Part shown: positions 5,495-36,771 of the stretch, one piece after another
How the letters are laid out: each line of letters begins with the position of its first letter
Numbering within the stretch: the stretch's first letter is position 1
Source: Candidatus Berkelbacteria bacterium
Lineage (GTDB): Bacteria; Patescibacteriota; UBA1384; 2-12-FULL-50-11
Reading direction: 5' to 3'
Assembly: GCA_030650195.1 (NCBI GenBank)
Contig: JAUSEP010000011.1
Span: forward strand, 1 to 42,571
Length of the DNA stretch: 42,571 nt
Made by a program: the position numbers and the translations under genes
The notes under the pieces: model-generated
Told to the model about the DNA's origin: nothing
Database searches by the model: none
The model's input: the letters and a program-made list of their open reading frames with translations, nothing else

Positions 5495-5535
5495 AGAAGG
5501 CCGGGCATTGCCCGGCCTTCTGGTGAAGGCGTCAG
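5495..5535. terminator. Bidirectional intrinsic terminator between convergent rplK and the downstream minus-strand gene
   Basis: Perfect inverted repeat AGAAGGCCGGGC-att-GCCCGGCCTTCT at 5495-5521. Confidence 0.75.
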
Positions 5536-6701
5536 ACGATCTTGATTCTTGGGCAGACCAGTCCTTTGGTGGATCGTAGCGTGGCCACACAGAAGGCTAT
5601 GGTGTCCCCAGCTGTCTGCAAGAGCCAGTTCGGCTTAGGTTCAGGGAACGGTTCGTATGGGCCCGCGCTTGGATGCGCCTCCACTGCATCTTTGGGCATA
5701 GATTCGAGCGCTCCCCGGATCGGTTTCCCTTTGTTCAAAACGTCCGATAGCCACGAGTAAAGCATTAGAATGGCTAGAATCCCAGAGACCATCGTCAAAC
5801 TTCCCTGTAGTACCCCTGGCTCCAAGAAGACATTCGACGATACGGCGATACCACCGAAAAAGCCGAACACCACAGCGTCTCCTAGTCTGTCACGATTCAC
5901 CGTCCGCTCCTTGCTATCAAAAATGCGGATAAGGCCAGTGGACAGTAGGAAAGCCAAAGCACACACAACCATAAGTCCTAACCAACCTGCGACGATCGCT
6001 ACTACCCAAGCAAACGTAATCACTACCCACGCTAAGCCACAGATAGTGGCGAGAGCTAAGAGCAATAAGCCAGGCGAGCGAGGAACTTTACCCCAGTACT
6101 TCATTTCCCTGCGGGTCTTCTCGATTGCAAAGTCTTGCATCGCATCGAGCCAGACGCTGACAGGGTTGGAACCGTTATAGAGAAAGTAAGCGACTGAAGT
6201 GAAGATATTGAACACCACGGCCGCCGCCATTATAATCCCCATAATCGTCAGTATCGAGACGACCTTCCACGATAGACGACAGATGGAGTCGTCCTGATAG
6301 TAATTCCAGTCTGCGGCCCAGGCTGATGAGATAAAGCGGTCTATCAGCTTCCAAACACGGCCACTTCCCTTAACGGCTAGGACGCCGTTGCGGTAGGTGG
6401 TGTCTTGTGAGCAGACGAGGTTGGTTCCAAAGGCGAAGACGGACATCAGCGCCACTATCACGAAAGAGATTGCGTAAGAATCTGCCCAATGGCTCCCAAT
6501 AACCACCAAGGCGGCCTGGTAGATACCGAAGGCATAGACAGAGCCCGTCGCAATGAGTAGCAAGCCACCGAATCGTTTGACGATCGGCGTTTGAGAAGCG
6601 GAAGCGAGGATTACTGCGGTAACCGCAATAATCCCTAGCCATAACAAAGCACTCCCCAGATTTGGGTAACGTTGCTCCGCAATATTGAGATACTGCAACA
6701 T
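5532..6701 (-). CDS. Polytopic membrane protein of unknown function
   Basis: Long ORF with many hydrophobic helices; likely start MLQYLNIAEQ preceded by the plus-strand complement of an AGGAGG-like SD (tctggaggaaaaaaatg). Confidence 0.6.
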   Translation of the reverse strand: MLQYLNIAEQRYPNLGSALLWLGIIAVTAVILASASQTPIVKRFGGLLLIATGSVYAFGIYQAALVVIGSHWADSYAISFVIVALMSVFAFGTNLVCSQDTTYRNGVLAVKGSGRVWKLIDRFISSAWAADWNYYQDDSICRLSWKVVSILTIMGIIMAAAVVFNIFTSVAYFLYNGSNPVSVWLDAMQDFAIEKTRREMKYWGKVPRSPGLLLLALATICGLAWVVITFAWVVAIVAGWLGLMVVCALAFLLSTGLIRIFDSKERTVNRDRLGDAVVFGFFGGIAVSSNVFLEPGVLQGSLTMVSGILAILMLYSWLSDVLNKGKPIRGALESMPKDAVEAHPSAGPYEPFPEPKPNWLLQTAGDTIAFCVATLRSTKGLVCPRIKIV

Positions 6702-6796
6702 TTTTTTCCTCCAGATTGTCAAGCGTCCATGAACTGGACACAAACTGATAGCAATCCTGCTCCAAAAGGTTCGGAAAGTCAAGCAGTTTGGTTACA

Positions 6797-10321: not shown

Positions 10322-10717
10322 CTATCCCTTCACTTTCTCGTGCAAGAGTAGGCGCTTACCCGTAGTGACGAAGAGGTCGTCCATCACCTTACTGACGTTT
10401 GGGTTGTTTACCGATGCGCCATTCCTTAGCAACTTGAGTGCTTCTCGTTGATCGGGCGAGAGGTCTCGCTTGATCGCTCGTAAGTTGTCGCGCCCGTTCT
10501 CAAGCAAGCGTATCTCTGTATCGGCGCTCAACTCGGGGTCGAGCGTTGTCAGAGCCTGCTTTGCGTGATCTTTCACTAGACCGAGGCCTTGTTTCTCGAC
10601 CGCTTCCGACGGGGCTGAGTAGCCGTCTGGATTCGATAGATACGCGTAGTAACCTAGCGCTATCCCAGGTACGGTTACCAAGAGGATGTACTGCCAAAGT
10701 TTTATTTTAGTTCCCAT
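10322..10717 (-). CDS. Small membrane-anchored/secreted hypothetical protein
   Basis: N-terminal TM (LWQYILLVTVPGIALGYYAYL) and soluble domain; own terminator. Confidence 0.5.
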   Translation of the reverse strand: MGTKIKLWQYILLVTVPGIALGYYAYLSNPDGYSAPSEAVEKQGLGLVKDHAKQALTTLDPELSADTEIRLLENGRDNLRAIKRDLSPDQREALKLLRNGASVNNPNVSKVMDDLFVTTGKRLLLHEKVKG

Positions 10718-11826: not shown

Positions 11827-12228
11827 TTAGCTGAACAAGCCGCGCCTAATGGCTTCCCGGATGTCCTTAACCGCATCTTCGATGTTTGGACTCCTGGTCT
11901 TGCATAGGCCGCGATTGAAGTAGGCGCATGCGAGGTTGCAATCTGACTCTATGGCCAGGTCGTAACACTCAATCGCCCCCTCGTGATCTCCGAGCAAGTT
12001 ACGGACAACACCGTAGTTGTTGTGGGCCCAGGCTAGTCTGGGAGATAAAGAGAGGGCGGCCGCGAAATAGCCAGCTGCATCAGGCAGAGATCCTGCCTCG
12101 CAGGCTGCGACACCCGCATTGAATAGCAGGATCGCGGCGCTGAGTTCCGGGTTAGAGTCGATAAGCTCGGGTTGTACTCCGACAAAGAAGTATCCCGAAT
12201 CTTTGGGTATCAAACTGATTCCTTCCAT
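11827..12228 (-). CDS. TPR-repeat protein
   Basis: AAGYFAAALSLSPRLAWAHNNYGVVRNLLGDHEGAIECYDLAIESDCNLACAYFNRGLCK matches the TPR consensus. Confidence 0.75.
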   Translation of the reverse strand: MEGISLIPKDSGYFFVGVQPELIDSNPELSAAILLFNAGVAACEAGSLPDAAGYFAAALSLSPRLAWAHNNYGVVRNLLGDHEGAIECYDLAIESDCNLACAYFNRGLCKTRSPNIEDAVKDIREAIRRGLFS

Positions 12229-12436
12229 CTTTCCTCCGTCGTGTCGTGAACACTAGCGTCATCGATTGAGATGAGCGTTCCGAAAATAAGGGGTTATTTG
12301 CGAAAAGCTCATCTCAAAGCTTATTAAGGAACCGTCTTATGCTCGGGTATTCTAACTTCGTCATTGATAAAAGTCAATGGGTTTGAGGCGAATTTCCCGC
12401 TTCCAAAAAACCGTAAAAACAGGTAAAAAGAGAATA

Positions 12437-13771
12437 ATGTTTCAGATTTACAATACCTTGACTGGTAAAAGAGAAAAATTCAAGTCTATTAAACCAAAGA
12501 AGGTTGGGATGTATGTTTGTGGACCAACGGTTTATGACTACGGTCATGTTGGTCATGCTAGAACATATCTAACTTTTGATCTTATAAATCGTTTCTTAAA
12601 CTTTCTTGGGTACAAGGTTAACTACATCCAGAACATTACTGATGTTGGACACCTGGTAGGGGATGCTGAAACGGGTACAGATAAGATAAAGAAGAAGGCC
12701 CAGGAGACTGGCGAGAGTATTGGCGATATTGTACGACATTATACCGAGGCACACCTGGAGGATCTGAAGTCTCTTAATATCCTTGAACCAAGTACTTCAC
12801 CTAAGGCTTCTGAGCATATTAAAGATATTATTGCCTTTATTGAGGACTTAATTTCTAAGGGATTTGCCTATGTTACCGAGGAAGGTAATGTTTACTTCAG
12901 TGTTAATAAAAAGCCAGATTACGGTAAATTGAGCCATCGGGGATTAGCTGAGATTCTTACGGGTACTAGGGTAGAACCAGCAAAAGACAAGAGATTACCA
13001 GCAGATTTTGCGCTTTGGAAAGCAGCACCCTCTGGAGCTACTGAGTATGTTTGGGATTCTCCTTGGGGAAAAGGTTTTCCAGGTTGGCATATAGAGTGTT
13101 CGGTTATGAGCCAGAAATACCTAGGAGATACTTTTGATATCCATGGTTCGGCTGTTGAGCACGTATTTCCTCATCACGAGAACGAGATTGCCCAATCCGA
13201 AGCTAAAACAGGCCAACCACTAGCTAATTACTGGGTTCACTCGGGTATGTTAACCCTAAACGGCAGAAAGATGAGCAAATCTCTTGGTAACACGGTTCGA
13301 GTACCAGACGCCCTTAAGGATTACTCAGCCAATGAAATACGTTTGGCTTTCTACCAAACACCATACCGACAACCCTTTGACTACACTAGAGAGTCTATGA
13401 CCCAGGGGGTTGCGCTTCGCTCCAAGCTTTTTAATGCGTATATGGCCGCCAAAGAAGTGGAAGACAAAGAAAGCCTCTCAGACATTATCGAAGCCCTGTC
13501 TGATGACCTAGATACTCATCGGGCTCTAGAAATATGGTCGGAGCACATTGGTAGCTTAAGCCGAGAACAGTTCGAGAAACTTTTTAACATATTTGGCTTA
13601 ATGTTTATTTCGATCGAAGAGAATCCTAAAGCAAAGAAGCTAGCTGATGAGCGAGACGAAGCCAGAGCTAAAAAAGACTTTCTGACTTCAGATAACCGTA
13701 GGGGAGAGATCGAACAATTAGGTTACGAAGTTAAAGACTTAGATTCTGGTTCTCACTACATTCCGCGTTAG
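12437..13771 (+). CDS. cysS: Cysteinyl-tRNA synthetase
   Basis: MYVCGPTVYDYGHVGHARTYLTFD, GWHIECSVMSQKYLG, KMSKSLGN. Confidence 0.97.
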   Translation: MFQIYNTLTGKREKFKSIKPKKVGMYVCGPTVYDYGHVGHARTYLTFDLINRFLNFLGYKVNYIQNITDVGHLVGDAETGTDKIKKKAQETGESIGDIVRHYTEAHLEDLKSLNILEPSTSPKASEHIKDIIAFIEDLISKGFAYVTEEGNVYFSVNKKPDYGKLSHRGLAEILTGTRVEPAKDKRLPADFALWKAAPSGATEYVWDSPWGKGFPGWHIECSVMSQKYLGDTFDIHGSAVEHVFPHHENEIAQSEAKTGQPLANYWVHSGMLTLNGRKMSKSLGNTVRVPDALKDYSANEIRLAFYQTPYRQPFDYTRESMTQGVALRSKLFNAYMAAKEVEDKESLSDIIEALSDDLDTHRALEIWSEHIGSLSREQFEKLFNIFGLMFISIEENPKAKKLADERDEARAKKDFLTSDNRRGEIEQLGYEVKDLDSGSHYIPR

Positions 13772-14037: not shown

Positions 14038-15156
14038 TTGAAGCGACTCATACTAATCGTAGTCAGTGCGGCGCTATCTTGCGTCGCCTTTGCCCAGTTT
14101 TCTCTTGCCGGGGGTCTCTATAACGAGAAGGAGACAAAAACGGTTCTGGAAAAGAACCTGGCTATCTTCTTTTCGGCACGAGACAGCCTTGGCAACCGAG
14201 TTGGAACATTCGATGGTTCCGGCTTGCGCAAACCCGCAGTAGTCCGCGGAATGATCCTGGACGGGACAATCATCCCTTTGAACTGGGAGATTAAGAGTCT
14301 CGACCTGAAGTTCATTCCGCTCGAGCAGACTTACCGGCTTGACGTCGATGACGCGAACGGTTGGATCATTGGTCAAAGAGCAAAAGGCGACCTAGCTTTT
14401 CGCTACAAGATCGATACGTCCAACTTACCAAACGGCGACAATGTCTGGGCGGTTCGCATTAGCTGGCGTGATCGTAAGGATCATCAGCTGGTAATGTTGC
14501 TCCGTTGGGTTAGTCACCCGACAGGCAATGGGCAGCAACTGCTGTCCTTAGTCGTTCGTGAGATGCCACCCGGAGCAGATCCCTTGACAGGGAAGAATAC
14601 GAATGACTTACGTGGTATCGAGCTCTTCCCGTATACGGAAGGGTTCACCAACCTCGTAGCCAGTCCTTCGGGCGTACCGCAATCGACTACAATGCCCGGA
14701 CAGAAGGTCGAAAAGCGGGTCGATGACCAAGTTCAGACAAAGAACCAACAGAAAAAGGTCGAAGACGAGCCGGAAGACATCCCGGTTCCCGTCAAGCCCA
14801 AAACTCACGGCGGTCTGAACATCGGCTACATTCCCTACGATGACTGGAAGGAATTCGTGGAGGATGAGCTAACCATAGATGAACAGAAGGATCCAGCTCT
14901 CGTCTCGGTTTCCGGGAACGAGTTGGAACTGCCAAGTACGGAACGTCTGGCGATTTACATCGTTTCAGACCGACCGATCGACAAGGCTCAGTTCTTGGTT
15001 GGCTCCAAGACGTATGAATTGGTTCCCTATCAGACGATCATTGGAGGTCAGACGATCTTCTTCGTTCGAACGTCGGGGAAATGCTCCACACTCAACGGCG
15101 GCAAGCTTGTAATAAAGCAAGGCGCCGTGACCCGCACCGTAAGGGTGAAAAGGTGA
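14038..15156 (+). CDS. Secreted hypothetical protein
   Basis: TTG start with GGAGGT SD; signal peptide MKRLILIVVSAALSCVAFAQFSLAGG. Confidence 0.6.
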   Translation: MKRLILIVVSAALSCVAFAQFSLAGGLYNEKETKTVLEKNLAIFFSARDSLGNRVGTFDGSGLRKPAVVRGMILDGTIIPLNWEIKSLDLKFIPLEQTYRLDVDDANGWIIGQRAKGDLAFRYKIDTSNLPNGDNVWAVRISWRDRKDHQLVMLLRWVSHPTGNGQQLLSLVVREMPPGADPLTGKNTNDLRGIELFPYTEGFTNLVASPSGVPQSTTMPGQKVEKRVDDQVQTKNQQKKVEDEPEDIPVPVKPKTHGGLNIGYIPYDDWKEFVEDELTIDEQKDPALVSVSGNELELPSTERLAIYIVSDRPIDKAQFLVGSKTYELVPYQTIIGGQTIFFVRTSGKCSTLNGGKLVIKQGAVTRTVRVKR

Positions 15157-15161
15157 TCAAA

Positions 15162-16031
15162 ATGAAACGAATCTTATCGATCGCGATAGCCGGAGCCGTA
15201 TTGTCGGCTCTGGCTTTGCCCTCGAGCGGCGTCCTGCCGTTCAACTACAAGGACCGCTCCCTTTCGGCGAGCGTGGTCCAAGACATGGAGCGGATTGGCG
15301 CCGTAACGCCTCCTGTCAACGAGGTTTATTCTAACGCCTTTGGTACCGACCAATGGCGTGGAAACCTCGAAGACACCGGAGAGAGAAAGATCGTCCGTAA
15401 GGATGAGAAATTCTCCAACTCCGGTCTGGCTTGGACTGACAATAAAAAGTCCAAGCTTGGTGGTACGACCTGCAGTTCTGTCGCGAAAGCGGAAGTCCAG
15501 CTTTGTCTAGTGATGTGCAAGCCCACGGGCGTTGCGCAGTGGATCAAGCGGGATTGCCTGAACGTCGCCGGTAAGAGGCAACTGCCAAAGACCCCTCACT
15601 CCAAGCAGGTATGCGAGGAGGTCGTTGAACCGGCGCATGCTGGCACGATCGGCATTGACATCGACGTCTCTGCCAACGCAACCGCAACGGCGATCGTCAA
15701 CAACGACATCGACGTCTCTGCCTCAAACGGGCCGATGACGTTCAACTTCTTCCAGCCATCTGCGGCGCCGACAACGCCACTGCATGACTGGCGCGGTCAA
15801 ACGACCGTGACCGAAAACCAGATCATCGCTTGGTTCTGGCAGCCGCGACAGCGGCCGACCAGCATCGAGGTGAACAACACGAACATCAACGAGAACAACA
15901 TAGCTAATGCCAACGTCCTAACCAGCAACCAGGTCCAAAACCTGGTCAACGGCAACGGAAGCACTGGCACAGCTGGCGGCACTGCCACAGGCCCTGGAAA
16001 TGTCACGGCCGGCGGCGGTCGTTCGCCGTAG
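15162..16031 (+). CDS. Secreted hypothetical protein with Asn-rich C-terminus
   Basis: Signal peptide MKRILSIAIAGAVLSALALPSSG; C-terminal NTNINENNIANANVLTSNQVQNLVNGNGSTGTAGG. Confidence 0.6.
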   Translation: MKRILSIAIAGAVLSALALPSSGVLPFNYKDRSLSASVVQDMERIGAVTPPVNEVYSNAFGTDQWRGNLEDTGERKIVRKDEKFSNSGLAWTDNKKSKLGGTTCSSVAKAEVQLCLVMCKPTGVAQWIKRDCLNVAGKRQLPKTPHSKQVCEEVVEPAHAGTIGIDIDVSANATATAIVNNDIDVSASNGPMTFNFFQPSAAPTTPLHDWRGQTTVTENQIIAWFWQPRQRPTSIEVNNTNINENNIANANVLTSNQVQNLVNGNGSTGTAGGTATGPGNVTAGGGRSP

Positions 16032-16047
16032 TTCCCTTCCCTTCGTC

Positions 16048-16085
16048 GGGCGGTTCACACGAACCGCCCGGCACCCCTTCTTTTT
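16048..16085 (+). terminator. Intrinsic terminator
   Basis: CGGGCGGTTC-acac-GAACCGCCCG followed by cttcttttt. Confidence 0.8.
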
Positions 16086-16188
16086 ACAAGAAACTTTCGA
16101 TATATATAAGTTGGAAAGTTCCTTGTGGTAAGAAGCCACTGCAACTGACGGTCGAATCAGTTGTTGCTAATAATAAGGAAAGGAAAGA

Positions 16189-16656
16189 ATGAATATAAAA
16201 TCATTTATCTTTTTGACAGCCGTGTTAGGGGCTTTGCTAGTGTTCGGCTACAGCAACAACGTTGTAGTTGCAAGTGAGAACTATAATAGCAACGTCAATA
16301 ACAATGCTAACGCTAATGCCAATGCCAACAACCAAGTTCAAAACATGGTTAACGGTAACGGTGCCTCTGGCTCTGCCAGTGGCTCAGCGTCAGCCGCTGC
16401 CTCAGCTACTGCCGGATCTAGCACTAACGCAAGTGCATCCGCCGCAGCTAGTGCTGCTGCCAAGGCGTCTACCTCTACCAGTGTCGCTACCACAAAGGTA
16501 GCTACAAGCACGGGTAACAAGGTTGTCGCCAAGACAGTTAAGTCGTTGCCTGCAACTGGTGCCGAAATGGCTCTGTTGCCTGGTGCGATGAGCGCTTTTG
16601 CTCTAGCAGCCCGCAAGTATTTGCTGGCTCGCAAAGAAGCAAGTCTCTTGGCCTAA
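16189..16656 (+). CDS. Secreted/cell-wall-associated low-complexity protein with LPxTG-like C-terminal motif
   Basis: Signal peptide; Asn/Ala/Ser-rich low-complexity region with NNQVQNMVNGNG; C-terminal SLPATGAE, hydrophobic stretch, RKYLLARKEA basic tail. Confidence 0.6.
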   Translation: MNIKSFIFLTAVLGALLVFGYSNNVVVASENYNSNVNNNANANANANNQVQNMVNGNGASGSASGSASAAASATAGSSTNASASAAASAAAKASTSTSVATTKVATSTGNKVVAKTVKSLPATGAEMALLPGAMSAFALAARKYLLARKEASLLA

Positions 16657-16742: not shown

Positions 16743-17732
16743 ATGAGCGATAAGAACCGTAAAGCTGATTTAGCAGAAATCCTACGGATTGCCGATAAAA
16801 CAGCTCGCATTAAGTCTATTGAGACCGAAATGGGTACGCCTTCGTTTTGGCAGGAGCATCAAAAAGCTGCCAAACTAACCCAGGAATTAAAACACTTACA
16901 AGATTTCGTTGCTAAATTTGAGCTGGCGGAATCTGACGCTGAGCTAGAAAAACTAGAAGAGGAAGTATTTTTTTCTGGTGAACACGACGACTCTTCGGCG
17001 TTTGTTGCCGTTCATTCTGGTTCTGGTGGTGTTGAAGCCCAAGACTGGGCCGAAGTGTTACTGCGGATGTATACGCGCTATGGAGAAAGGGCGGACTACA
17101 GAGTTTCTTTACTAGACCAGCAGGATGGCGAAGAAGCGGGTATTAAAAGCGCAACGCTACTAATAGAGGGGTTTAGAGCATATGGCAAACTTAAAGCCGA
17201 AAATGGTGTTCATCGCTTAGTGCGAATTAGCCCCTTTGATGCAGATAAATCTCGCCACACATCTTTTGCTTTAGTGGAGGTGGTACCAGAAGTCGAGGGA
17301 GGCAAAGAAATTGAGGTAAAACCTGATGAAGTAAGAATAGATGTTTATCGTGCAGGGGGTCATGGAGGACAGGGAGTCAATACTACCGATTCTGCTGTCC
17401 GTATTACACACATTTCGACCAATATTGTTGTTACCTGTCAGAATGAGCGATCACAATTGCAAAACAAGCTCCAAGCGCTTAAAATTCTTCAAGGCAAGCT
17501 TCAACTGTTGGATGATGAGAAAAGACGGATCTCCAACCAGAATCTTAAAGGTGAACCAGTATTAGCTTCATGGGGTAACCAGATCCGCTCTTACGTTCTG
17601 CAGCCGTACCAAATGGTAAAAGACTTAAGAAGCGGCTATGAAACATCGGGTGTTGATGATGTTCTGGATGGTCGCTTAGAAAATATATTAGAGGCAAACA
17701 TAAAACACTTCGCTAACTTAAAGAAAGGATAG
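16743..17732 (+). CDS. prfB: Peptide chain release factor 2
   Basis: GSGGVEAQDWAEVLLRMY, RAGGHGGQGVNTTDSAVRITH; single continuous frame. Confidence 0.93.
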   Translation: MSDKNRKADLAEILRIADKTARIKSIETEMGTPSFWQEHQKAAKLTQELKHLQDFVAKFELAESDAELEKLEEEVFFSGEHDDSSAFVAVHSGSGGVEAQDWAEVLLRMYTRYGERADYRVSLLDQQDGEEAGIKSATLLIEGFRAYGKLKAENGVHRLVRISPFDADKSRHTSFALVEVVPEVEGGKEIEVKPDEVRIDVYRAGGHGGQGVNTTDSAVRITHISTNIVVTCQNERSQLQNKLQALKILQGKLQLLDDEKRRISNQNLKGEPVLASWGNQIRSYVLQPYQMVKDLRSGYETSGVDDVLDGRLENILEANIKHFANLKKG

Positions 17733-21381: not shown

Positions 21382-23958
21382 TTACCAGCTTGCACCAGAT
21401 GATGAGTCACCCCCACCGCCCCAGCTTCCACCGGACGAGGAATCACTTCCGCTGCTCCAGCTACTGCCAGAACTGCTGTCCCAAGAGCTACTCGAGCTGC
21501 TTGCGTACGACGCTTGGCGCCGTGCGCTCTCTTCTTCCTCACGCTCTCGACGGGCTGCTGCTTCCGCCGCTTGACGTGCTGCTTCAGCCTCCTCGTAGTC
21601 GCGTTGAGCTCGACGAGCAGCTGACTGCCAGTCGTTCTCAACGTTATCGAGGAGTGTCATCATCATCAGGTAGTCAGCCGGTCCGTTGACTGGCTGAAAC
21701 CTGAAGCTAGACAGCTGTTGCGAACCTCCGTAGCGTTTGACTTTCCGTAGGTAGTCTTCGCGTGTGGAGTCCATCTGAGCCAATCGTTTCTCGAACTCGG
21801 CCTTGGCCTTGTCGAGCTCCTTGCAGCTACGCACTGTGCGTTGTGCCTGAGCGATCGCCTCATCGAACTTACTCGCAGCTAACTCGGCGTTCCGGCGGGC
21901 ATTGAGGTGTCGCTTTTCGCCGATCTGTCGCTGGGCCTTTTCGAGGTCTCTCTGCCCGTCTGTGAGTTGCGCCTGTGCCGCAGAAAGAAACTTAGCCGGC
22001 TCCTTAGACTTGTGGACCTTAGATGCCTGCGTGAGGACACGGCTTGCGTCTCCCGTCTCCAGGGTTACTTGCTTCAGCTTCTTCTGTGCGGTGTCGATCG
22101 ACTCGACAGCCGATTTAACCGCGTTATTGAGGACTGCTGCCTGTTGGGCTGCCTTCCGGTAGAGCTCGTCGGCCTTCTGGGCCTGTTGCACCACCTCTTC
22201 GACAGTGACAGCTCCAGCGAGTACTCCCGCCAACTGATCTTCCGCTCGGCGAGCCAGGGCGAAGGTCGTCCTGGGGTCGTCGTTCGGGTCGACGACTGTA
22301 TCGCCGACATACGGTTCGGACTCCAGCCGGTTGGATCGGCTTAGCTCAATCGCAGAGGTCAGCTGCTCGAATTCAGCAGAGACAGTCGTCTCGGCTTTCT
22401 TCAGGTCGTTTAGCTTCTCGACGAAAGCTACCGGATCGGTCAGTGCCAGGTCGTTGGTCGACTTGTAGAGTGACTGATCGGTACTGTCGTCGCCAGCCAG
22501 AGGGTGGTTTGATAGCCAACGCTCGGGGATGCCCATGGAGCGGGCTTGGGCCAAAAGCGCATCGTACGTCTTCGACGGAAAATGCTGCTCGGCCGTCATG
22601 TCTCTTGCGGCAATCGCCGCTTTGAGATCGTTCCAGCTTTGGACGTTCGCCTCGAACCTCGCTTGAAGTGAATCCGCCAGTTCTTTTGGGCTGATCTTGA
22701 TCACCTTAGTTTCCGGCTCGAAGAGGCTGTCCTTGTTGACCTGCCCGGTATCGAAGTCGAAAGCCTCATCAAGCCTTTCGATTGCCCGCTCAAGCGGTTT
22801 GAGGCTGAAGAAGGTCGCCTCATTGGCCAGCATCTTACAGCTCTCCGTGAGCTGACGAAGGGCCTCAACTCCGACGTACATCTCGTCAACTTCTTTGGTA
22901 ACCGATGAGTATAGCTCGGCGGTTTTGCCAGTTACTCCTGTGAGGGAAAGAATGTCACCGCGGTCGCCGTAAAGCTTGAAGAACTGTTGGGAGGCGTTGG
23001 TTACCATTGCCAGGCGCTGTCCAACCTCTTTGTTGAAGCGCAGTCGAAGCCCATTCCTCTTTCCCGATCTGCCGGCAATGAGGAATATGGCTAGGAAAAA
23101 GGCCCCTAAGGTTAGCACCCACTTAAAGACAAGCTGGAGAAAAAGTCGTGCTGCAACACGCTCTTTCTCGTTCACGGTGAATTCCAGCGCATCAGCGCTA
23201 ACTTTTGTCGCTGCTGCCGTTGAGAGCATCTCCGTACGGTCGCCACTGTCGCGAGCCTTCCGGGCGTCTGCTAGCGCTTTTTTGTAGTCGCTAACATCAT
23301 TTGGAAGGTACTCCTTCTTGTTGAGCAGGTCGCCCAAACGGACAATCTGTTCGCCAAGAGTCGACTTTGCTGCTAACAACGCTCGTTCTTCAGCTTCCTT
23401 CCGAGCAGCTTCCTTCCGAGCCGCAATTCGGTCCGGGTCAGTCTGATCGAAAAGGTAGCTATCGACGGCCGTCATCATGTTGATGATGCCGTTTTTCGGA
23501 TCCTTTCGTTGAGCCTGAACCGACGCCTTGAAGATGTCTGTATATGGCTCGTGGGCGTCGTTTCGAAAGTTGAGTTCAGCTTCGAACTTACTTCCTGCCA
23601 GGAAGCGATACTTCCGTGGATTGTAAGCAAGTAAGAAGATCTGCGACTTCGCCATATCGAACGACGGGTAACGCTGACCCCACTGTTGGGAGAGATAGTT
23701 GATGGCGTTCGCCGCCAGTTGATCGCCATCGCCAGAACCTGGTAGAGTTTCGACGAGAACGACGTAATAGGGGAAGTGGCAGCTTTTTGCCGCCTTGTTG
23801 ATATCGTCAATCCCGGAATTGCCAATCATTGGTGGGTTAAACCCTCCGGGAATTGTGTAGACGAACTGCCCCTCACGTAAAGTGGGGACTTCGAGTTGAG
23901 CGCATGCAGTTCCGGTGAAGAGCGCAGCGACGATGACGAGTAAGATGCGTATTTTCAT
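21382..23958 (-). CDS. TPM-domain-like secreted/membrane protein with coiled-coil region and Ser/Gly/Trp-rich tail
   Basis: Signal peptide MKIRILLVIVAALFTGTACA; TPM-like N-domain; one internal TM helix; long helical segment; C-terminal SSSSSWDSSSGSSWSSG...GASW typical of TPM-family proteins. Confidence 0.6.
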   Translation of the reverse strand: MKIRILLVIVAALFTGTACAQLEVPTLREGQFVYTIPGGFNPPMIGNSGIDDINKAAKSCHFPYYVVLVETLPGSGDGDQLAANAINYLSQQWGQRYPSFDMAKSQIFLLAYNPRKYRFLAGSKFEAELNFRNDAHEPYTDIFKASVQAQRKDPKNGIINMMTAVDSYLFDQTDPDRIAARKEAARKEAEERALLAAKSTLGEQIVRLGDLLNKKEYLPNDVSDYKKALADARKARDSGDRTEMLSTAAATKVSADALEFTVNEKERVAARLFLQLVFKWVLTLGAFFLAIFLIAGRSGKRNGLRLRFNKEVGQRLAMVTNASQQFFKLYGDRGDILSLTGVTGKTAELYSSVTKEVDEMYVGVEALRQLTESCKMLANEATFFSLKPLERAIERLDEAFDFDTGQVNKDSLFEPETKVIKISPKELADSLQARFEANVQSWNDLKAAIAARDMTAEQHFPSKTYDALLAQARSMGIPERWLSNHPLAGDDSTDQSLYKSTNDLALTDPVAFVEKLNDLKKAETTVSAEFEQLTSAIELSRSNRLESEPYVGDTVVDPNDDPRTTFALARRAEDQLAGVLAGAVTVEEVVQQAQKADELYRKAAQQAAVLNNAVKSAVESIDTAQKKLKQVTLETGDASRVLTQASKVHKSKEPAKFLSAAQAQLTDGQRDLEKAQRQIGEKRHLNARRNAELAASKFDEAIAQAQRTVRSCKELDKAKAEFEKRLAQMDSTREDYLRKVKRYGGSQQLSSFRFQPVNGPADYLMMMTLLDNVENDWQSAARRAQRDYEEAEAARQAAEAAARREREEEESARRQASYASSSSSSWDSSSGSSWSSGSDSSSGGSWGGGGDSSSGASW

Positions 23959-24067
23959 ATTGTCACCGATGTGTGAAAGAACGGTAACGGACAAATCCGT
24001 TACGTTTACTGGTGCATTTTACCCGAAAAACAAGGGGTTGTCCAGGGGTCAGAGGCGGTTTTTGCTA

Positions 24068-24674: not shown

Positions 24675-25457
24675 ATGGACGAAACTGCACTCAAGCTCAA
24701 TAAACTTCGCACCTTCAACTGGGTGATGTTTTTCTTGCACGCTGCTCAGGGCGTGGCGATTCTCCTGCTTAGTACCAATTTCAAACTGCCTGTTACCGCC
24801 AGCTACCTCACCTTTGACGCCTCCACACAATCGCTCCTGCCAGCTTCCAGCGAACTGTTCCGTCTGTCGCTGGCTTGGCTAGTGGCGGCCTTTTTCTTCA
24901 TCTCGGCTTTTGCCCATTTAAGCATCGCTACCTATTACAACAAAACCTACAACGCCAATCTCTTGCGCGGCCTCAACAGAGCCCGTTGGTGGGAGTACTC
25001 AATCTCGGCAACGATCATGCTCATTGCTATCGCTATGTTGGTGGGCATTTACGATTTCGGCGCCTTGGTGCTGATCTTTGGTCTGGGAGTGGTGATGAAT
25101 ATGATGGGCCTGATGATGGAAACGCACAATCAAGGCGTGCTGGAACGGGGCGAGAAGCCCAACTGGCTGGCTTTCAAGATCGGAACATGGGCCGGCGTTA
25201 TTCCCTGGCTAATAATTGCTCTCGGCTTTTACTGGAGTGCGAAATTTAGCGGTGCCCAACCACCGACGTTTGTCTACTGGATTTATGTCTCGATCTTCGT
25301 TTTCTTCAACTGCTTCGCCATCAATATGGTTCTGCAGTACAAGCAGGTCGGCAAATGGCGCGACTACCTCTACGGCGAACGCGCGTTTATTATCTTGAGC
25401 TTAGTCGCCAAAAGCTTGTTGGCCTGGCAAGTCTTCGCCGGCACGTTACGGCCGTGA
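24675..25457 (+). CDS. Heliorhodopsin
   Basis: 260 aa, seven predicted hydrophobic helices; N-terminal TM1 FLHAAQG (His22), FAHLS (His81), RARWWEYSIS with Glu107, TM7 SLVAKSLLAWQVFAGTLRP with Lys246 as Schiff-base lysine. Confidence 0.93.
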   Translation: MDETALKLNKLRTFNWVMFFLHAAQGVAILLLSTNFKLPVTASYLTFDASTQSLLPASSELFRLSLAWLVAAFFFISAFAHLSIATYYNKTYNANLLRGLNRARWWEYSISATIMLIAIAMLVGIYDFGALVLIFGLGVVMNMMGLMMETHNQGVLERGEKPNWLAFKIGTWAGVIPWLIIALGFYWSAKFSGAQPPTFVYWIYVSIFVFFNCFAINMVLQYKQVGKWRDYLYGERAFIILSLVAKSLLAWQVFAGTLRP

Positions 25458-25521
25458 GTTTAGGCAACCAGTTTCTTTGAATACATAGAAAGTTTGTGCT
25501 GCGGACGATCACTTAGAGGCA

Positions 25522-25550
25522 TTGACTCCTACGGGTTCTGTTGGTATACT
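25522..25550 (+). promoter_or_regulatory. Sigma70-type promoter: TTGACT-N17-TATACT
   Basis: -35 25522-25527, -10 25545-25550. Confidence 0.75.
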
Positions 25551-25563
25551 GTCGGCACATAAT

Positions 25564-25588
25564 CAAGCGTCGTCAACGATGATGCTTG
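25564..25588 (+). promoter_or_regulatory. 5' UTR hairpin abutting the SD of the 133-aa gene
   Basis: CAAGCGTCGTC-aac-GATGATGCTTG directly followed by the GAGG SD. Confidence 0.5.
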
Positions 25589-25598
25589 GAGGAAGATT

Positions 25599-26000
25599 AT
25601 GAGAAAAGATAAAGATTCGTTCTATGTACTTCGCAAATTCGTTGTAGACGGTAAGGAGGTGATCCCAATGGGGTTGCAGGAGTCTGCTACGCGGAAACTC
25701 TCGCTTCTCGTCGCGGGTAAGGTCGGCAACCGCATTTTCCTGGTGCTCCTACCAGGAACTATTGTCGCTGCTAGCGACTGGGAGTTCGCCAAGGGCCCGC
25801 AGCTTCTAGCGGAGTTTTGCCTGAGGAGACTGGGTCTGTTGGCTTATTTCTCCCGGATGCGCAGAACCGTTCCCACCGATTTCGATTGGTGGGGACACGC
25901 GTTCGTCGTGAGGGAAGACGACAAAATCGTTCTTTACGACGTTGACGATTACCCACTGACCGAAGAAGTCGGGAAGGTGGCACAGCTTGCCTTTGCCTAA
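25599..26000 (+). CDS. Hypothetical protein (cassette 1)
   Basis: SD GGAGG; own promoter; MRKDKDSFYVLRKFVVDGKEVIPMG...; no family recognised. Confidence 0.6.
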   Translation: MRKDKDSFYVLRKFVVDGKEVIPMGLQESATRKLSLLVAGKVGNRIFLVLLPGTIVAASDWEFAKGPQLLAEFCLRRLGLLAYFSRMRRTVPTDFDWWGHAFVVREDDKIVLYDVDDYPLTEEVGKVAQLAFA

Positions 26001-26081
26001 CTCGTCAGCCCTTCCTTTCAGCTCGTGGCTCTGGATTGATTTCCAGGGCCTCTTCTTTTTGTCTCGAAGATGTTATGTACG

Positions 26082-26174
26082 TATCTCTACGGCGAACGAG
26101 AGTATGTTATCCTGTCTCTCGTCGCTAAGAGTCTATTTGCTTGGCAGGTCTTCGCCGGAACCCTCCGCCCGTAG
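26082..26174 (+). pseudogene. Heliorhodopsin 3'-terminal fragment (copy B)
   Basis: Translates YLYGEREYVILSLVAKSLFAWQVFAGTLRP*, aligning to the last 31 codons including the stop of the heliorhodopsin at 24675-25457. Confidence 0.92.
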
Positions 26175-26231
26175 AACTAACATAAGTTTTAGTTTACAAT
26201 CGGATGATCCTAAACAGGAGGTACATTTACG

Positions 26232-26825
26232 TTGGTAAGAAAGGTATTAGCTTTTGATTTCGACGGTGTGATAATAGATTTCTTCGGCCACTTCCGAGTC
26301 TTCGCCAATGATCAGCTGGGAACTAATGTCAGTAATGACGAGTGCCTCTGGCATGACCTTGGTAAGTGTTTTGGCGTGGATAGCGACCGAATGCGTTCCG
26401 TCCACGAAAAGTGGGAAACCACTTTCAGTCATGACGTACTTCAGCCGATCGACGGAGCACTTGAGTCCCTCGCGGTCCTGTCATCGAGATATGATATTGC
26501 CATCGTCACCAGTCGCAAAAGGGAGCTAGAGACAGTCACCCGCGATTGGTTTGAGAAGAGCTTTCCCCAGGCCAGCATCCACTTTGCGATGGGTCGGAAC
26601 AACCCCTATGCTGGGGCGGATGGTCGATTGTATAAGCCACAAGTGGCTGAACTGATTGGTGCGATTGCCCTTGTGGAGGACAATGAGGAGGAGTTCGTCC
26701 ACTGGGATTCCAGCAGTGTCGAACCAATTTGTTTCGCTCATCCCTGGAATGAATGCCTTATAGAAACTCACCCACATATTTTGCGTCTCCGTTGGCCGCA
26801 AATCATGGAGCGTTTCCTTGGCTAG
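26232..26825 (+). CDS. HAD-superfamily hydrolase/5'-nucleotidase-like protein (cassette 2)
   Basis: TTG start after AGGAGGT; VLAFDFDGVIIDFFGHF (DxD motif I), IAIVTSRKRE, LVEDNEEE. Confidence 0.75.
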   Translation: MVRKVLAFDFDGVIIDFFGHFRVFANDQLGTNVSNDECLWHDLGKCFGVDSDRMRSVHEKWETTFSHDVLQPIDGALESLAVLSSRYDIAIVTSRKRELETVTRDWFEKSFPQASIHFAMGRNNPYAGADGRLYKPQVAELIGAIALVEDNEEEFVHWDSSSVEPICFAHPWNECLIETHPHILRLRWPQIMERFLG

Positions 26826-29335: not shown

Positions 29336-29384
29336 TACCCCAATTCGGAGCAATTCCGTGTTGCTTCACAAATTGGAGTGAATG

Positions 29385-31232
29385 ATGACCAAACGCAAGG
29401 TAATCTTGAGCTATCCGCCCGCATCGTCTGTTTGGCACTTGCCAGCGGGCATCGCCCAACTGGCGGTGATCTTACAGGAGCAAGGGCATGAGGTTCTCCA
29501 GCGGTATGGTCACATACTCGGTCTGGAATACCTTTTGCTCTCGCGCGACCAAGAAAGAATCTCGAAGGCGCTTTCGATCGTTCGTGACCCCAAGAGCGAC
29601 ATTCAGTCGCTTTACCAGGCTCGCATGACGTTCGAAGACGTTTCGCTTGCAATCCCGAACAACGATAAGAAGTTTGTGGTTGAGCGAAACAACGTCGTCT
29701 TTGTCTCTGGCTACTACAACGGCACTGTCGAGTCTGCCTTGGAAGCGGTGAGCAACCGAGAGAGCCATCTCTGGTTCGACTACTTCCATGATGTTGAGCT
29801 GTCAGTGGCCGAAGTTTTCGACCCAGACGTTTATGGCATAAGCATTTCCGATGAGCGTCAGCTCATCCAGGGACTGATCTTGGCCTCGATGGTCAAAGAC
29901 GCCCTGCCGGAATGCTTGGTAATCATCGGTGGTAACTTCTGGTCGCGTGTTGTGACGGAAGAGAGCGCGCCCAAGCTAGCGCCGCTACTCAACATCTGCG
30001 ACGCGATCGTCTATGCCGAGGGGTTTCAACCCCTAAGCACCATCGTCGAAGCGCTCAATGTCGAAAACGCACCGGGCACAATGTGGAGAGACAAGAGCGG
30101 TAACGTTCGACTCAACCCACCGCCGACGGTTCTGACACTGTTCGAGACGCTTCCGACGCCGATCTATGACGGTGGGGCAGCTCAATGGGCTTCTGATGCA
30201 GTGTACCCGCTGTATACGATGTCCAACTGCATCCACGCCTGTGAGTTCTGCGCGATCAGTGCACAGAGTGACAGCTTCTTGGGCAAGCCGAGGGTGATGA
30301 GCCCTGAACGGATTGTCGAGCATATGATCACGCTCGGCGGCCATTGGTTCGACTTCACAGATGAGCTAATGCCCGTTCAGAGGCAGATTAACATTGGCGA
30401 GGAACTGCGCCGGCGAGGTTACGAAGCCGTCTGGCAGTGTTACTTGACGATCACGGATAACCTCCTTGATCCGAAAGTATGCCAACAGCTTTTCGAGGCT
30501 GGCTGCCGATGCGTTCAGTTGGGGCTAGAAACGCTGACCCCTACAACTCTCGATCAAGCGAACAAGCGCTGGAACCACCCCGAAAACTACGGTCGCATTT
30601 TGCGCAACCTGAAGGAAGCGGGAATCCAGAACCATATTTTCCTGATCGCTGGGATTCCGGGAGAGCGTCAGACGGATACCCTCCGCTGGCTACCGTTCTT
30701 GGAAGAGTACGGCGACGCGATTACGACTATCAAGTCTGGACGCTACCGTCTTGCTCGTCGGTCTCCGGACGAAACGGTGATGGGGCTAAGTAGCGAATCG
30801 GAAATCGAACGATGGCTTCAAAAGCAACCGGAGAAATCACGCGAGTCTCGACGTAGGCATATCGAGTTGTTGCACGGTACAATTCGAATGTTGCCCGATA
30901 AGCTTCCGCTTCAGCTGAATCGGGGGTTCGAGTACATCGGTGCTGAACGTTCGGTTCGCAAAGACGTCGAAGCGTTGCGAGACGTGCTTGAGCAGGCGTG
31001 TAGGGAGAACCCCTACTACCGAGCAACTTCGACGATTCCGTGGTGGATAAATCGAAGAAGCTTCACCTGGGATCAGCTGGCGGAAGCGAACCGGCAACTT
31101 CCCAATGAAGAGCCCGCACCTAACCTGGACCGTGCTCTCAACAGGATTGGTGGCATCGTTCGTCACGAGCTTGGCAGAGAGGCGACGTTTCACAACTATC
31201 ACGATGCTCTGGAGTTCGCCAGGACTCTGTAG
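29385..31232 (+). CDS. Radical SAM protein with N-terminal B12-binding-like domain
   Basis: CIHACEFCAIS (CxxxCxxC) radical SAM motif; N-terminal region AGIAQLAVILQEQGHEV resembles B12-binding radical SAM proteins; GLETLTP, FLIAGIPGE. Confidence 0.8.
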   Translation: MTKRKVILSYPPASSVWHLPAGIAQLAVILQEQGHEVLQRYGHILGLEYLLLSRDQERISKALSIVRDPKSDIQSLYQARMTFEDVSLAIPNNDKKFVVERNNVVFVSGYYNGTVESALEAVSNRESHLWFDYFHDVELSVAEVFDPDVYGISISDERQLIQGLILASMVKDALPECLVIIGGNFWSRVVTEESAPKLAPLLNICDAIVYAEGFQPLSTIVEALNVENAPGTMWRDKSGNVRLNPPPTVLTLFETLPTPIYDGGAAQWASDAVYPLYTMSNCIHACEFCAISAQSDSFLGKPRVMSPERIVEHMITLGGHWFDFTDELMPVQRQINIGEELRRRGYEAVWQCYLTITDNLLDPKVCQQLFEAGCRCVQLGLETLTPTTLDQANKRWNHPENYGRILRNLKEAGIQNHIFLIAGIPGERQTDTLRWLPFLEEYGDAITTIKSGRYRLARRSPDETVMGLSSESEIERWLQKQPEKSRESRRRHIELLHGTIRMLPDKLPLQLNRGFEYIGAERSVRKDVEALRDVLEQACRENPYYRATSTIPWWINRRSFTWDQLAEANRQLPNEEPAPNLDRALNRIGGIVRHELGREATFHNYHDALEFARTL

Positions 31233-35532: not shown

Positions 35533-36675
35533 TTACGTGTACGGAACTTGGTAGGGAACTAGCCACCACTCGAGGTTTGAGCCAAAGACGTCAAACCACA
35601 GTCGCATTCCGGGGCGAATCTTACCTTGTTCAGAAAAATGGGCGTACGTGCTCAAAGCCGAAACAGCTGACTGATTGGCTCGGTCTGGAATCCGATGGAA
35701 AATGCTTTCCTCGCTGAAGCCCAGTGCTCGGCCGTGGCGAGTAATCATTTTCAGACTTCCGTTGTGCGGTAGCAAGCGATCGTCTCCTTCACAATCGATA
35801 ACGTAGCCATTTGCCAGAATCCACGCGAGATCGTGTTTCGGAATCTCTCGTCGAACGATTTCGTAAATGTCGTGACCATGGCCACACATTGAGCCATTGA
35901 GACGCAAACCACGATGGCACCGTGCCGCACCCTGGCCTTCACTTAGGGTCATGTCATACTTGTTTCCTTTGTCTTCGTAAGGACCTGCGTCTAGTCGTCC
36001 ATAGGGGACAAAGATGCCTGTCCCAGGTCGGCCTTTACGGTTAGTCTTGAGAACGAAAGACGCTCCGCCATCACCCCAAAGGGTTGCGTCTTCATCTTCG
36101 TCGGCGGTGCCGGTTGATCCAGGCACATCTCCTGTTACCACGAGAGCAGCCTCAATGGACGGATCCAGGCGCATTGCACGGTACGCATAGACCATAGCTT
36201 TCACTCCGGAACAGCAAGCGTTAGAAAGGGAGACGCCTTCGGTCGGACCTAGCTCCAGATATTGGTGGACGAATGCGTCGCCTCCAGGGAAAGCATTGTT
36301 GGAGGTGGAACTACCAAAGGCGATGAAGCCAATCTTCCCAACCGTAAAGTCTGGGTCATTGATGTGTGCGTTCTCAATTGCTCGTTTAGCGCTGATTAGA
36401 CCAAGCCCGTACGAATCGTCATCGGGTCGATACTGACGACTGACCACCCCGATCTTATCGGTGACTTCTTTGGCTGTTCGCGACGAGAGCCTTTCAAGCT
36501 CGGTTTCAAACTTTGACCATTCGTCACGTCGATTGGGGTCTTCGAGTAATGCACGGAGATTGGTTCTAATCCGATCCAAAGTTTCTTCATTTCCTTTGGC
36601 GAATCTATCTTCGGTTGGGGTGTCCCCCGAACCTATGATCTCGATCGGGTAGGGGTTAGGGAGCAGTTCGATCAT
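35533..36675 (-). CDS. FabH/ketoacyl-ACP synthase III-like thiolase-fold protein
   Basis: IGFIAFGSSTSNNAFPGGDAFVHQYLELGPTEGVSLSNACCSGVKAMVYAYRAM (active-site Cys context), WGDGGASFVL; AGGAGG SD before ATG 36675. Confidence 0.7.
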   Translation of the reverse strand: MIELLPNPYPIEIIGSGDTPTEDRFAKGNEETLDRIRTNLRALLEDPNRRDEWSKFETELERLSSRTAKEVTDKIGVVSRQYRPDDDSYGLGLISAKRAIENAHINDPDFTVGKIGFIAFGSSTSNNAFPGGDAFVHQYLELGPTEGVSLSNACCSGVKAMVYAYRAMRLDPSIEAALVVTGDVPGSTGTADEDEDATLWGDGGASFVLKTNRKGRPGTGIFVPYGRLDAGPYEDKGNKYDMTLSEGQGAARCHRGLRLNGSMCGHGHDIYEIVRREIPKHDLAWILANGYVIDCEGDDRLLPHNGSLKMITRHGRALGFSEESIFHRIPDRANQSAVSALSTYAHFSEQGKIRPGMRLWFDVFGSNLEWWLVPYQVPYT

Positions 36676-36771
36676 GGGGGCCTCCTTGATTTGGAAAAGG
36701 GCGAACAATTTCGCTTGCTTATTTTCCCACCTTTCGACATGGAAAGCCAGAAGCTATGGTAAGGTAAGAAA

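Follow-up and report, generated by a model that had tools for sequence, protein, structure and literature searches.

The window (the whole 42,571-nucleotide stretch of Candidatus Berkelbacteria DNA analysed here) carries a three-gene surface locus, U-P1-P2, which sits between cysS and prfB (Table 1). Two adjacent secreted proteins with a common motif had been picked out in the initial annotation, and both are present as P1 and P2; that description did not take in the gene upstream of them, the constant slot between cysS and prfB or the co-variation of the tails between genomes. The neighbours of the locus are cysS, recR and topA, together with prfB, ybaB and pth. Neither U nor P1 matched any Pfam or NCBIfam family, the window P2 falls below the cut-off of every family in both collections, and a search of the open-access literature found no description of the locus. 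A promoter and terminator scan around P1 and P2 found little signal, and AlphaFold2 modelling of P1 alone gave a mean pLDDT of 29.

Table 1. Features of the U-P1-P2 locus, its flanking genes and the GC-richer genes of the window.
Feature	Positions	Strand	Description
cysS	12377..13771	+	Upstream flank of the slot
U	14041..15156	+	Secreted, ~371 aa, first gene of the locus; stops 5 bases before P1
P1	15162..16031	+	Secreted 289-aa protein; N-terminal signal-like hydrophobic segment, Cys-containing head, C-terminal matched tail
Matched tail of P1 (NTNINENNIANANVLTSNQVQNLVNGNGSTGTAGGTATG...)	15870..16028	+	Defined by alignment with P2
P2	16189..16656	+	155-aa LPxTG-type surface protein with Asn/Ser/Ala-rich ectodomain
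P2 segment matching the P1 tail (NYNSNVNNNANANANANNQVQNMVNGNGASGSASGSAS...)	16279..16416	+	Defined by alignment with the P1 tail
P2 C-terminal sorting signal	16546..16653	+	LPATG, hydrophobic stretch, RKYLLARKEASLLA end kept within the family
prfB	16743..17732	+	Downstream flank of the slot
GC-richer genes	5532-6782, 10322-10717, 11827-12228, 14041-16031, 21382-23994, 24675-26825, 29382-31232		

The base composition of U (third-position GC 0.61, total 0.52) and of P1 (total 0.58) is higher in GC than that of the neighbouring housekeeping genes (0.32-0.48 at third positions and about 0.40-0.46 in total). GC-richer genes, with third-position values mostly of 0.55-0.69, are scattered through the window, alone or a few together, between housekeeping genes at 0.32-0.48, a pattern like that of acquired cargo dispersed over a conserved backbone. 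One of these encodes an exported 870-aa protein (21382-23994, reverse strand) with a Ser/Trp/Gly-rich C-terminus (SSSSSWDSSSGSSWSSGSDSSSGG), and another a radical SAM protein (29382-31232, forward strand); the latter, and a ketoacyl-ACP-synthase-III-like protein (35533-36708, reverse strand), are unexpected for so small a genome.

The stretch common to P1 and P2 has the form NxNxNxNNxANANxxxxNQVQN(L/M)VNGNG and runs on into a segment rich in G, S, A and T. The P1 tail aligns with P2 with 26 identities over 46 residues, and because the alignment score lies ~14.8 standard deviations above composition-preserving shuffles of the tail, the match exceeds shared composition; the two proteins are therefore not unrelated beyond composition bias, as the initial annotation had allowed they might be. 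The P1 and P2 genes are the only two places in the 787-kb genome with a degenerate DNA pattern for NQVQN. NQVQN itself is a local motif and not class-wide; what does recur, in ten families, is the matching of a P1 tail to the neighbouring P2, so that the rarity of the motif does not tell against the initial proposal in the way foreseen there. The conserved feature is the match between P1 tail and P2, whereas the motif itself changes from lineage to lineage.

P2 has the features of a sortase-anchored protein. The LPATG noted previously near its C-terminus is followed by a weakly hydrophobic stretch and basic residues, and across a set of 21 genomes every P2 has an LPxTG-like motif (LPATG in the window, and LPx[TAS]G, LLKTG or LAPTG in others) together with an N-terminal signal-like hydrophobic segment as judged by hydropathy. 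The window P2 anchor misses the LPXTG models, and the P2 of one relative, G012, scores above the TIGR01167 cut-off. A sortase, which the initial annotation had proposed to look for, is encoded elsewhere in the window's own genome (G000, contig C63, positions 2475-2870; PF04203 E 3.4e-28, with TIGR01076 above cut-off), and sortases were found in 52 of 55 genomes of the class. G036, a draft genome that is 94% complete, has P2 and the P1 tail with no detectable sortase. P1 itself lacks both an LPxTG-type motif and a lipobox in all 21 genomes. The P2 C-termini, in the window (16612-16653) and in relatives, carry a short conserved end after the sorting signal that is unusual for an LPxTG protein, reading RK.xLA.KEAxLLA within the family and ADLIVS/G, ANLIKF, LSFLK or FIKANL elsewhere.

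The 21 genomes, from ten families, each have P1 and a low-complexity P2; the pairs were chosen by eye, from the occurrence of a low-complexity LPxTG protein preceded by an exported gene, and a match between the two played no part in the choice. In all of them the P1 tail and the adjacent P2 are sequences of one general type. When every P1 was compared with every P2 (21 by 21), the last ~75 residues of P1 resembled the P2 of the same genome far better than those of other genomes, with the own P2 as top scorer in 13-14 of the 21 and a summed own-partner score of 2309; permuting the partners gave a mean of 1333 (sd 97), and none of 100,000 permutations came up to the observed score. The signal is confined to the tail, as no own-partner effect is seen for the parts of P1 lying 95-170 and 150-225 residues from its end, and it persists among the 12 Asn-rich pairs alone (0/20,000 permutations). 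Examples are NNNSNTNVNDNANNNVINIGDGSATG and NNNSNSNSNANANNNVINIGSGSAEG in G015, NAQFQGQGQGQLTIVPIVNN and NAQFQGQGQGQQTIVPIVNN in G034, and NNNSNTIGIDVDQQQQQQ and NNNTNNISVDVSQQQQQQQ in G041, the P1 tail being given first in each. In five genomes with Ser/Ala-rich or mixed pairs (G001, G019, G021, G039 and G049) the match barely exceeds composition; chance or composition alone is ruled out for the Asn/Gln-rich pairs, and not for all of the Ser/Ala-rich ones.

The two partners also change in concert. The Asn fraction of the P1 tail follows that of P2 in independent contrasts on the prfB tree (r 0.95, 19 contrasts, 0/100,000), and in the sister genomes G000 (the window genome) and G001 both genes differ at once. 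The P1 heads vary widely between species, and related heads bear unlike tails, each fitting its own P2: those of G014 and G036 are 47% identical and carry Ser-rich and Asn-rich tails respectively, and further tail swaps on related heads are seen for G026 relative to G001 and G006, and for G049 relative to G029. The heads of G000 and G002 are alike, the window P1 being akin to that of G002 across 232 residues (E 9e-25), as are those of G001 and G006, and these head likenesses suggest exchange of whole cassettes. The P1 linker is variable and in some species collagen-like or Pro-rich (Pfam Collagen at E 6e-5 and 1e-4, below the curated cut-off), and collagen-like linkers would suit a head-stalk-tail protein. 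In G029, G011, G017 and G045 the P2 position is held by a DUF11-type LPxTG protein, and the end stretch of the adjacent P1 does not match its partner (Z -0.8 to 0.1) and is Pro-rich in three of the four.

Among the genomes compared, which are mostly drafts, the slot is kept across a class of Patescibacteria, in the window's family and nine others, with the same flanks (cysS and prfB) in most relatives whose contig is long enough to tell, a secreted gene in the U position, and P2 positional orthologues adjoining prfB throughout the window's family. There are departures from this layout: U and P1 are fused in G036, G009 has a P2-like gene in the slot and no P1, and in G018 and G030 (family f12) a gap of only ~200 bases separates cysS from prfB, without the locus. 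A P2 profile searched against 380 genomes of the phylum matched only P2 genes and P1 tails, all within this class, so that at this sensitivity P2 proteins of this type are not a phylum-wide feature. Upstream of prfB, further branches of the class encode one or two large exported proteins, most with an LPxTG-like end (L040, L050, L052, L053, L055-L058 and L060-L065), and Pfam confirms DUF11 in the proteins beside prfB in L047, L052, L055 and L056. Because these branches too have exported proteins beside prfB, the slot has the look of a permanent place for a main surface protein.

The reading that we consider the most probable, with somewhat better than even confidence, is that sortase-anchored P2 holds P1, a protein of head-linker-tail build, by like-with-like docking of low-complexity sequence. 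The locus would then encode a surface assembly. After export, P2 would be joined to the cell envelope by the genome's sortase, with LPATG as the signal, and would display a short low-complexity ectodomain built from one to three repeat units. P1 would be exported without an anchor, as a head, a variable linker and a C-terminal tail close to one P2 repeat unit, and be kept on the cell through like-with-like association of the tail with P2; the pair would have to change together because P1 is held in this way. The sequence relationships suggest a surface structure held together by like-with-like tails, and the modular surface system proposed in the initial annotation is borne out to the extent that the partners are linked beyond composition, one is of LPxTG type and a sortase gene is present. 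U, whose gene immediately precedes that of P1, is probably also part of this complex. The physical docking and its structure, the fold of the tail, adhesion and any fibre are what we infer, as is the role of the heads, which would be the part facing partner cells or surfaces. A more tentative extension, which we put at rather less than an even chance, is a homotypic recognition code, in which short low-complexity tails match only their own partner and drift quickly, so that each species' complex becomes private while heads are exchanged between lineages.

Parts of this arrangement have parallels in known systems. The curli proteins CsgA and CsgB are likewise adjacent, small and exported, with common Asn/Gln-containing repeats, and one of them seeds or anchors the other; P1 and P2 differ in having no curlin repeat (Pfam), a sortase-type anchor and a motif that is not conserved between species. 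In cohesin-dockerin systems a secreted protein is fixed to an anchored scaffold through a module at its C-terminus, as proposed for the P1 tail, although cohesin and dockerin are folded, unlike partners with conserved motifs, whereas P1 and P2 both carry the same low-complexity unit. A further parallel is SpcA-SpcB of Lactobacillus rhamnosus, in which secreted SpcA docks to the LPXTG-anchored surface protein SpcB, where its Big-3 domains bind a region of high complexity (PMC3584209). Both systems place an anchorless exported protein beside an anchored, low-complexity-bearing surface protein in one gene cluster, but for SpcA-SpcB neither common partner sequence nor concerted sequence change is described (PMC3584209), and binding of P1 to P2 is predicted solely from their concerted change. 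The P1-P2 pair is a variant of this known arrangement of secreted protein and docking protein.

Matching tails could also arise by DNA copying, with P1 tails being copies of part of P2 (or the reverse) that are refreshed by recombination between neighbours and have no function. The adjacency of the genes and the tendency of repeats to recombine are compatible with this, and G036 shows some excess of shared codons (18 the same, 10.2 expected), so that occasional copying is possible. Across 14 pairs, however, the same codon is used at 150 of 375 aligned identical residues, where 132 are expected from the codon usage of both genes, and in the window pair at 12 of 26 (11.4 expected). Since synonymous codons are randomised, recent gene conversion does not explain the matching, and the match that persists between the proteins points to selection at that level. 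No matched tail is found where a DUF11 protein holds the P2 position, and overall we consider copying without function very improbable.

Another explanation is that the two regions make no contact and are spacers shaped alike by a single species-specific process acting on exported low-complexity sequence, such as a glycosyltransferase, a protease or a solvent condition. Exported low-complexity Ser-rich sequence is often glycosylated in other bacteria. SpcB provides one such case (PMC3584209), and some Ser/Ala-rich pairs at this locus match by composition only. The Asn-rich and Gln-rich pairs, however, match in residue order well beyond composition, for example at NAQFQGQGQGQ and TIVPIVNN in G034 and NANNNVINIG in G015, and the profile matches among the 380 phylum genomes were confined to P2 genes and P1 tails within this class; we regard a shared regime as unlikely. 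The Asn/Gln-rich tandem units, homotypic tails and small exported proteins would also fit an amyloid or beta-solenoid fibre in which P2 is the subunit and P1 a co-polymerising minor subunit or tip, as for CsgA/CsgB. Against this, no curlin match was found in Pfam for the window P1 and P2 or for the P2 proteins of G012 and G015, no dedicated curli secretion genes lie beside the pair among the locus neighbours listed above, and P2 carries a sortase-type signal. The curli-like character suggested initially is thus unsupported as regards curlin membership, and a fibre of this kind seems to us highly doubtful.

Few functions are known for the surface proteins of bacteria in this group, whose members are thought to live on other cells, and tethering of P1 by like-with-like docking to P2 would bear on these proteins. 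The locus offers a testable case, at the level of sequence, of partner matching within low-complexity regions that are normally treated as noise, and the matched and mismatched pairs constitute a natural series for studying recognition between such sequences. As a class-wide marker, the locus can also guide searches for the variable head proteins, which are probably the ones in contact with the partner cell.
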